A stretch of 33,510 nucleotides of DNA from positions 1-33,510 of the forward strand of contig CANHKG010000024.1 of NCBI GenBank assembly GCA_947460455.1. The letters run 5' to 3'. The translations under genes were made by a program, and so were the position numbers. Under the pieces are notes generated by a model, which was given only the letters and a program-made list of their open reading frames with translations, made no database searches and was not told the DNA's origin. This document shows, one piece after another, positions 4,891 to 6,313 of the stretch. This stretch comes from Rhodospirillales bacterium (GTDB lineage: Bacteria > Pseudomonadota > Alphaproteobacteria > Acetobacterales > Acetobacteraceae). Within the stretch, counting starts at the first letter, position 1. Every line of letters begins with the position of its first letter.

Positions 4891-4959
4891 TCGGGCCTCC
4901 GGGCCCGGCGCGCGGCCAGCAAGCCTCGCCCGGCCCGGCGTGATCCGCCATTCTGTCGG

Positions 4960-4971
4960 AATGCATTACAC
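4960..4971 (+). promoter_or_regulatory. Possible activator-binding motif (AATGCATTACAC)
   Basis: This 12-mer recurs with one change (AATGCTTTACAC) at 6066-6077. Both copies lie upstream of sigma-54-type promoters on the same strand, 136 and 63 bases before the -24 element. That placement fits an upstream activator site for a sigma-54 enhancer-binding protein such as PrsR, but binding is inferred. Confidence 0.4.
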
Positions 4972-5106
4972 ATCGCTGTCTATCATTGTATGGCAATCAA
5001 GCGGTTGCGCGAAATAATGCGCTTTTGATGGTCGTTTTATTTTACATAAATTCCAACATACATAGGTAATCGTGCCTAGTTATTTGTTTTAATTCAACAT
5101 AATATC

Positions 5107-5121
5107 TGGCACATATTTTGC
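5107..5121 (+). promoter_or_regulatory. Sigma-54 (-24/-12) promoter of the PEP-CTERM gene
   Basis: TGGCAC, five bases, TTGC: the invariant GG and GC dinucleotides have the required spacing, and TGGCAC and TTGC both match consensus exactly. The predicted start of transcription is near 5133, which leaves a 69-base leader before the GTG at 5202. It rules out any translation start before 5133. PEP-CTERM/exosortase systems commonly encode PrsK/PrsR, whose regulator is of the sigma-54 activator type, so this control is biologically sensible. Confidence 0.75.
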
Positions 5122-5201
5122 GAAGCGCACGCCGGTTCAGCCGTGCCGTGCACGCATGCATGCGCATGAGGCCGCACCATTGTATTCCATTGGAGGCTTA
5201 C

Positions 5202-5990
5202 GTGCGAAATACAATTCTCAAGACAACAACAGCCCTTGCGGCATTGGTGGCCATCGGGCTCGCGGCACCGGGTGCTGCCAGGGCGGACACCATTCAGCTG
5301 GGCTTCATCCTCGATGAGTCCGGCAGCATCTCCTCGTCCTCGTGGACCCAGATCACCGGCGGGCTCGCCAACGCGATCAACACCCTGATCCCGATCGGTG
5401 GCCCGAACACCTATGAGATCTCGGTCGTCAAGTTCGACAACACGGCCGAAGTGGTGGTGAACCGCCAGGTGGTGTCCACGGCGGCCCAGCGTACCGCGGT
5501 GGCCAACGCGGTGTCCGCAGCAGCGCAGGGGGGCGGAGTCACCAACTACCAGGTCGCCTTCAACCTGATGCAGACAGTGCTGACCACCGGCGGCAACCTG
5601 CCCACGCTCTCCTTCGTGAACTTCGCGACGGACGGCGAGCCGAACCAGCCCAACAACGCCCAGGCGGCCGCGGTCACCGCGCGCAACGCGCTGATCGCGG
5701 CCGGCATCGACAACATCAGCATCGAGGGCATCGGCGTGAACGCCGCGGCCGCGAGCTTCCTGCAGAACTCGATCTGCTACCCGGGCCCCTGCGATATCAC
5801 GGCGCCATACAACTTCCCGGCGCAGGGCTTCTACATCGGCGTTGCCGATGCCCAGGGCTACGTCAACGCCATCGGCAACAAGATCCAGGTGGTGACCCAG
5901 CAGCAGGTGCCGGAGCCCGCCAGCATGGCGCTGCTCGGTGCCGGCCTGCTGGGCCTGGCGGCGCTGCGGCGCCGGGGTGCGAAGGCCTAG
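5202..5990 (+). CDS. PEP-CTERM sorting-signal protein with von Willebrand A (DUF1194-like) domain
   Basis: 262 residues from a GTG at 5202, set by GGAGG with a 5-nt spacer and by the sigma-54 promoter just upstream. Residues 1-28 form a Sec signal peptide ending APGAARA. Residues ~31-230 are a VWA fold with a complete metal-binding MIDAS: D38-x-S40-x-S42 in ILDESGSIS, Thr114 and Asp144 in ATDGE. The tail is a PEP-CTERM signal: VPEP at 236-239, a hydrophobic helix 240-255, then RRR. Such tails are removed by exosortase, which delivers the protein to the cell surface or matrix. No exosortase is in this window. Two cysteines (ICYPGPCDI) could form a disulfide. A role in surface or matrix adhesion is inferred. 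Confidence 0.9.
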   Translation: MRNTILKTTTALAALVAIGLAAPGAARADTIQLGFILDESGSISSSSWTQITGGLANAINTLIPIGGPNTYEISVVKFDNTAEVVVNRQVVSTAAQRTAVANAVSAAAQGGGVTNYQVAFNLMQTVLTTGGNLPTLSFVNFATDGEPNQPNNAQAAAVTARNALIAAGIDNISIEGIGVNAAAASFLQNSICYPGPCDITAPYNFPAQGFYIGVADAQGYVNAIGNKIQVVTQQQVPEPASMALLGAGLLGLAALRRRGAKA

Positions 5991-6030: not shown

Positions 6031-6065
6031 GCGCCAATGCGGCGCGCCGATCCCCGGCATGCCGC

Positions 6066-6077
6066 AATGCTTTACAC
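6066..6077 (+). promoter_or_regulatory. Second copy of the AATGC(A/T)TTACAC motif
   Basis: AATGCTTTACAC, 11 of 12 bases identical to 4960-4971, lying 63 bases before the second sigma-54-type promoter. See that entry for the interpretation. Confidence 0.4.
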
Positions 6078-6139
6078 CCTTCGCATAGTCCAACAAATAC
6101 AGACACAGTAACGCATTGAATCAACGACTGTTAAGGTTT

Positions 6140-6155
6140 TGGCATGGTGTTTGCT
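6140..6155 (+). promoter_or_regulatory. Second sigma-54-type promoter, with no protein gene downstream
   Basis: TGGCATG, four bases, TTGCT: one mismatch (T for C at the sixth position) to the sigma-54 consensus, with correct GG-to-GC spacing. The predicted start is near 6166. The next annotated gene on this strand does not begin until past 10 kb, and a strong terminator lies at 6271-6303, so the promoter would make a short transcript. Confidence 0.6.
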
Positions 6156-6165
6156 TTGTTCTATG

Positions 6166-6303
6166 CCACACGCACCGGTCTCCTGGTCCGTCGCGATGAA
6201 GATGCCGTTTGCGGCCCTTCGTCCCCTGGTCCGGTTTGGGGTGCGTGAGACGATTTGAGGCGGGAGCGGGGGCCGTCGGCGCAAGCCGGCGGCCTCTTTT
6301 TTT
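6166..6303 (+). ncRNA. Candidate sigma-54-dependent small RNA (~138 nt)
   Basis: Bounded by a sigma-54-type promoter and a strong intrinsic terminator. Near its 5' end CACGCACC (6169-6176) can pair with GGTGCGTG (6240-6247), closing a domain that contains a 13-base direct repeat with one mismatch (6178-6190 and 6221-6233, sharing CCTGGTCCG). Alternatively it could be the mRNA of a tiny peptide: ATG at 6196 to TGA at 6258 gives 20 residues, but no ribosome-binding site is visible. It matches no RNA family I can recall. Confidence 0.45.
6271..6303 (+). terminator. Strong Rho-independent terminator
   Basis: GGCCGTCGGC (6271-6280), loop GCAA, GCCGGCGGCC (6285-6294), i.e. a 10-bp stem with one G-U pair and a tetraloop, then TC and seven T residues. 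It points along the plus strand, against the convergent hydrolase gene ending at 6314, and so belongs to the transcript from 6166 or read-through from the PEP-CTERM gene. Confidence 0.85.
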
Positions 6304-6313
6304 GCGCCGCGCC

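Follow-up and report, generated by a model that had tools for sequence, protein, structure and literature searches.

Predicted PrsR/sigma-54 promoters for a VWA/PEP-CTERM gene and a probable small RNA in a genus of Acetobacteraceae

Introduction

In a 33,510-nucleotide (nt) stretch of DNA from a Rhodospirillales bacterium (contig CANHKG010000024.1; hereafter the window), a sigma-54 promoter appears to precede a gene for a VWA-domain protein with a PEP-CTERM tail, which we call vwa. Which activator would serve this promoter, and would it serve anything else nearby? From the sequences, we consider it likely that the locus holds two adjacent transcription units, both in the PrsK/PrsR-sigma-54 (PEP-CTERM) regulon: one for an mRNA and one for a small RNA. 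The second promoter is about 1,000 bases beyond the vwa promoter, downstream of the vwa gene, and was missed in a preliminary description of this DNA. We refer to genomes by our labels (G000 is the genome of the window).

The promoter of the VWA/PEP-CTERM gene

The vwa unit has these features:

4954 to 4970, + strand: distal PrsR-type box, TGTCGGAATGCATTACA; motif 1 of the PEP-CTERM box with one mismatch to TTTACA
5030 to 5046, + strand: proximal PrsR-type box, GGTCGTTTTATTTTACA, 60 bases 5' of the sigma-54 site
5107 to 5121, + strand: sigma-54 promoter core, TGGCACATATTTTGC, with GG at 5108-5109 and GC at 5120-5121; predicted transcription start (+1) near 5133
5192 to 5196, + strand: Shine-Dalgarno sequence GGAGG, 5 nt 5' of the GTG at 5202
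5202 to 5990, + strand: gene for a VWA-domain PEP-CTERM protein of 262 amino acids, from a GTG start to a TAG stop that ends at 5990

The predicted +1 of a sigma-54 promoter lies 12 nt after the C of the -12 GC. The preliminary description had proposed a near-consensus sigma-54 promoter before the VWA/PEP-CTERM gene, and it was right about the sequence and position of the core, the GGAGG, and the GTG. Both boxes, the core, the Shine-Dalgarno sequence, and the GTG are all kept in two other genomes of the genus (G297 and G244, aligned with G000).

Haft et al. 2006 (PMC1569441) reported a PEP-CTERM box before 99 of 167 proteobacterial PEP-CTERM genes, R. rubrum included. It comprises a 17-nt motif ending in TTTACA (motif 1), a spacer of 62.8 nt (standard deviation 10.6), and a sigma-54 motif (motif 2), with the start codon about 71 nt further on; the same paper names PrsK, PrsR, and PrsT. 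The vwa unit is like this element in every part. The proximal box is 17 nt long, has the form GGTCG-N6-TTTACA, and lies at the usual 60-base spacing from the core (published range 32-92 nt); the -24 GG and -12 GC are present; and the GTG follows motif 2 by 80 nt (5121 to 5202; published range 23-221 nt). We regard the vwa promoter as a well-supported new member of an element that had already been described. The preliminary description had offered it as a direct cis-element linking PrsK/PrsR and sigma-54 to PEP-CTERM genes: sigma-54/PrsR control of vwa is well supported, but the cis-element itself is not new (PMC1569441).

That description had also held that a lack of rpoN, prsR, or exosortase homologues would count against its proposal, and all three are present in the genome. 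RpoN matches PF04552 (221 bits), PrsK scores 524.8 bits (cut-off 300), and PrsR (TIGR02915, 625 bits) is the only protein above that model's cut-off of 502.6. prsK and prsR are adjacent on contig C57, together with exosortase A (TIGR03109, 284 bits, cut-off 208) and the XrtA-system genes TIGR03006, TIGR03016, and TIGR03087, each over its cut-off. There are 30 PF07589 PEP-CTERM loci in the genome (28 matches over the cut-off). The vwa product itself matches VWA (PF00092, 42.2 bits) and PEP-CTERM (PF07589, 32.6 bits, cut-off 20.7; TIGR02595, 23.4, cut-off 16). The PEP-CTERM domain is at its C-terminus and an exosortase is encoded in the genome, both as expected of an exosortase substrate.

The core at 5107-5121 is the sole exact TGGCAC-N5-TTGC in the window. 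Genome-wide, this pattern has 15 matches against 9 for its backwards control, so the exact core is near chance, and it is the two-part site rather than the core alone that lifts the vwa promoter above chance; we dropped the exact core alone as evidence. The preliminary description had suggested scanning the genome for such cores before other PEP-CTERM genes: 3 of the 15 do precede PEP-CTERM genes, but only the sites on contigs C24 and C255 carry the box. The two-part pattern TTTACA-N46-74-TGGC-N7-TTGC is far more specific, with 7 matches in the genome (control, 0) and 51 across all nine genus genomes (control, 2). Those 51 comprise 40 with a PEP-CTERM open reading frame (ORF), two with cut VWA genes (by a contig end in G274 and by an insertion sequence in G033), seven at the second promoter described below, and two that are due to chance (in coding sequence). 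Across 299 genomes of the family, a stricter two-part pattern gave 296 matches, with at least one in 92 genomes, against 5 for the control (a manual tally). We retrieved 80 of these family matches, and 70 precede a PEP-CTERM ORF. The other 10 precede apparently cut or degenerate PEP-type ORFs (5), response-regulator genes (2), a DUF3050 gene (1), or a tiny ORF (1), or are probably due to chance (1). For both the genus and the family matches, PEP-CTERM ORFs were called with a regular expression of our own and not with a profile model.

We also trained a two-part matrix on 70 PEP-CTERM promoters, none of them from the genus. In the window it picks out two sites and no others: 5030/5107, before vwa (score 38.8), and 6060/6140 (score 41.8). 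Unrelated sites score no higher than -1.2 in the window, 10.1 in the reversed window, and 6.0 in 56.6 kb of control DNA (both strands of 28.3 kb).

Could the match at 5107 be a chance sigma-54 core, with vwa driven by sigma-70? The near-chance number of exact cores in the genome is what this explanation has in its favor, but a two-part score of 38.8 against at most 10.1 in controls, and the presence of the 5107 site in G297 and G244, make it scarcely credible. It is also very unlikely that a sigma-54 activator other than PrsR reads the vwa promoter. The genome does encode several NtrC-like proteins, and six further long matches to the PrsR model fall below its cut-off (296-359 bits). However, the boxes fit motif 1 at the published spacing, they mark PEP-CTERM genes across the family, and a single protein exceeds the PrsR cut-off.

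The second promoter and the predicted small RNA

The second unit (the RNA unit) has these features:

6060 to 6076, + strand: PrsR-type box, TGCCGCAATGCTTTACA
6140 to 6154, + strand: second sigma-54 core, TGGCATGGTGTTTGC, 63 bases past TTTACA; predicted +1 at 6166
6166 to 6303, + strand: predicted small RNA of about 138 nt, without a conserved ORF
6169 to 6247, + strand: long 5' hairpin, CACGCACC ... GGTGCGTG, with compensatory changes
6253 to 6267, + strand: linker of 15 bases between hairpin and terminator, ATTTGAGGCGGGAGC
6268 to 6303, + strand: intrinsic terminator, a 13-pair stem (6268-6297) followed by a T run

This promoter has motif 1, a spacer of 63, and motif 2 of Haft et al., and the matrix scores it above the vwa site. 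There is no PEP-CTERM gene directly 3' of it in any of the seven units that we found in the genus. In the window, no close gene follows on the + strand, and a metX-like and a paeA-like gene run toward the RNA unit. What follows the promoter looks like a structured RNA instead. The fold of 6166-6306 has a z score of -3.5. In a consensus structure for the five long units, 94.9% of cells are paired and five pairs have both members changed; none of 500 shuffles reached the covariation score, and slid structures pair only 39-49% (5 sequences). The unit thus has an activator site and a -24/-12 promoter before a terminated non-coding segment, with conserved RNA structure in five sequences, as expected of a sigma-54-dependent small RNA.

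The RNA unit is certain by BLAST in 6 of 397 family genomes, all in the genus. The two-part pattern adds a seventh, in G119, that is too diverged for BLAST, so the unit is in seven of the nine genus genomes; of the two without it, G274 has a contig that stops partway through vwa, and the G318 assembly has a completeness of 68%. BLAST matches in other genera (G132, G181, G368, and G388) were rejected: they are short, and fall either in the area of the terminator stem or within other sequence. The named records with the unit are metagenome-assembled genomes filed under Acetobacteraceae, Rhodospirillales, Alphaproteobacteria, or Asaia, and some are named after ponds or lakes; the window probably belongs to a freshwater genus of Acetobacteraceae that has not been cultured. 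G000, G297, and G244 share the gene order xpt - vwa - RNA - metX. There is no vwa orthologue in G171 or G119, yet both keep the RNA unit beside metX, in G171 also beside xpt (xpt - RNA - metX).

In the six aligned units, CTTTACACCCTT(C/G)G of the box and TGGCAYG-N4-TTGC of the core are constant and the intervening sequence varies. In all seven, the predicted +1 is a few bases from a 5' hairpin and the RNA closes with a terminator. The predicted RNA is 132-138 nt long in five units. The linker is invariant in six of the seven, and G119 has a partial match by eye.

We considered two other explanations for 6060-6303. It might be a small-protein gene: G000 has a 20-amino-acid frame that begins with the ATG at 6196, and frames of 18-20 amino acids with a common end are found in G000, G033, G297, and G244. 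But G212, G171, and G119 lack this frame, we saw no Shine-Dalgarno sequence before it, and G033, G297, and G244 have only GTG starts. Also, a compensatory change in the hairpin, from C-G to U-A, alters an amino acid of the small frame, and the linker is invariant beyond its stop codon. On these grounds we rejected a small protein as the preferred reading, and we think it quite improbable. Alternatively, the second promoter might be left over from a PEP-CTERM gene that has since been lost, and the stem beyond it a mere terminator region between convergent genes. PEP-CTERM genes do come and go at this locus (vwa is absent from G171 and G119), the body of the RNA diverges quickly, and metX is convergent. 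On the other side, the box and -24/-12 core are intact in all seven units while the sequence between them varies in the six aligned ones. The spacing of +1 and hairpin is also kept, the T run is on the + strand only, and the linker, as noted, is invariant in six of the seven. We consider such a relic unlikely, and our preferred explanation is that 6166-6303 is probably a PrsR/sigma-54-dependent small RNA.

Several results weigh against this proposal. Four of the five doubly changed pairs change in one sequence only; the covariation rests on five related sequences, and kinship inflates such counts; and further pair types did no better than shuffles (447 of 500). Folded singly, with the sequence cut at the T run, G000 and G244 have minimum-free-energy structures that depart from the consensus. 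The body of the RNA changes rapidly, and the G171 and G119 versions are only 78-79 nt long, with a shorter hairpin and little shared sequence. The unit was not found outside the genus, whether by BLAST in the family, at metX loci from other genera, or among the 80 family pattern matches (a two-part site was present at 1 of the 26 out-of-genus metX loci, in G020, and there it drives a PEP-CTERM gene). As for targets, there was no conserved start-proximal site for the complement of the linker (allowing at most one mismatch), and the duplexes computed with 23 PEP-CTERM translation starts had energies that did not improve on those of shuffled sequence. Finally, a scorable two-part site is present at only 8 of the genome's 30 PEP-CTERM loci (6 of the 30 could be judged only in part, with the frame reaching the edge of the retrieved sequence), so the regulon spans a minority of them.

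Proposed mechanism and comparison with known systems

In our model, a signal through PrsK would lead to phosphorylated PrsR, which would bind TGTCGG-N5-TTTACA boxes. Sitting on one face of the DNA, PrsR would then activate sigma-54 polymerase waiting at the -24/-12 elements. The promoter at 5107-5121 (+1 near 5133) would yield the mRNA of an exported VWA protein, which exosortase A would sort via its PEP-CTERM tail. The promoter at 6140-6154 (+1 near 6166) would yield a structured RNA of 138 nt that stops at the intrinsic terminator, short of the convergent metX-like gene. RNAs of this kind most often regulate in trans, and this one is most likely a regulatory RNA that would be switched on alongside the surface proteins, although it might instead bind a protein or act as a decoy. 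More tentatively, the PEP-CTERM regulon of this freshwater Acetobacteraceae genus may have a dedicated RNA arm, in which the PrsR/sigma-54-induced RNA would retune other envelope or exopolysaccharide genes while the exosortase-dependent coat is built; we think this possible but would not yet bet on it. An RNA under the same switch would let the regulon act on genes that have no box. The wider questions are what PrsK senses and how building the PEP-CTERM coat is matched to other parts of the envelope; the RNA unit is a defined 138-nt element that could be deleted.

RpoN dependence has been measured for a PEP-CTERM gene from a betaproteobacterium, Aquincola tertiaricarbonis. Its pepA is RpoN1-dependent, with a mapped start, and shares with the vwa unit a PEP-CTERM gene and a TGGCAC -24 element (PMC9850573). 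It encodes a different protein, and the available part of that report describes no neighboring RNA. In Desulfovibrio vulgaris, five predicted PEP-CTERM targets of a PrsR-type regulator, DVUA0057, were enriched in a DNA-affinity-purified chip (DAP-chip) experiment (PMC3333781). The part of that paper available to us names no small RNA among the targets of DVUA0057, and it is another regulator, DVU0679, that targets Dv_sRNA2.

Short RNAs under activator control are known: GlmY under QseF (PMC6075780), a quorum regulatory RNA in V. fischeri (PMC10162802), and Dv_sRNA2 under DVU0679 (PMC3333781). Sigma-54 is stated for the first two, and a response-regulator-type activator for GlmY and Dv_sRNA2. 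The RNA unit is like these in being predicted to encode an activator-controlled short RNA, but the regulators differ. The RNA has no match in Rfam at the gathering score; the weak matches at permissive E-values are mostly on the GC stem. Among the titles listed from an open-licence library, we found no report of a small RNA with a PEP-CTERM box.

Spacing of box and core, and other sites

The distances between box and core cluster at about 51, 62, and 73 bases, which are one turn of DNA apart. Across the 49 genus sites (without the two chance hits, L144 and L145), the spacers are 51-52 (2 sites), 60-64 (38), and 73-74 (9). Outside the genus, among the 114 matches listed, they are 46-47 (4), 50-53 (46), 54-59 (2), 60-64 (55), 65-70 (0), and 71-74 (7). 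The 80 family loci were picked by spacing class, so the count covers all the listed matches and no statement on spacing is based on those 80. These classes were defined after the data were seen, and the search range stops at 74. Because the classes are a helical turn apart, PrsR would have to sit on one face of the DNA, and they offer a clear-cut criterion, open to testing, by which PrsR targets could be recognized. The spacer in PMC1569441 is reported as a mean, a deviation, and a range, and the portion of that paper available to us mentions neither spacing classes nor an RNA gene.

Other sites from these scans are worth recording. In the genome of the window, an exact sigma-54 core precedes a PEP-CTERM gene at L064 (G000:C248:3538), and we found no PrsR-type box there. 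Also in this genome, a two-part site (L163, G000:C101:13532-13614) precedes a PEP-CTERM ORF, as called by the regular expression, that is outside the 30 PF07589 matches. In another genus of the family (g21), two-part sites L274 and L295 precede response-regulator genes with an OmpR-type DNA-binding domain (PF00486; L295 was scanned), and PrsR may command a second regulator in that genus. At L300 (G034:C132), a two-part site precedes the gene for a DUF3050 protein (PF11251, 188.6 bits) and not a PEP-CTERM gene.

The start codon of the VWA/PEP-CTERM gene

The preliminary description had argued that the promoter's position makes the long upstream reading of the frame impossible and fixes the start at the GTG. 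A +1 near 5133 does rule out the TTG at 5118, but the in-frame ATGs at 5160 and 5166 lie 3' of 5133, and by this argument either could be the start. We favor the GTG at 5202 for other reasons: GGAGG is 5 nt away, the N-terminus is signal-peptide-like (by eye, on the translation alone), and TTGGAGG and GTGCGAAATAC are conserved.

The Shine-Dalgarno sequence and GTG of vwa appear to be separated in G033, where an insertion sequence (ends GAGCCCATCCGGAAA / TTCCCGGATGGGTTC, with TTA duplicated) lies between them. The insertion site coincides with contig breaks, at the end of G033:C51 (L134) and the start of G033:C78 (L017, 1-145).
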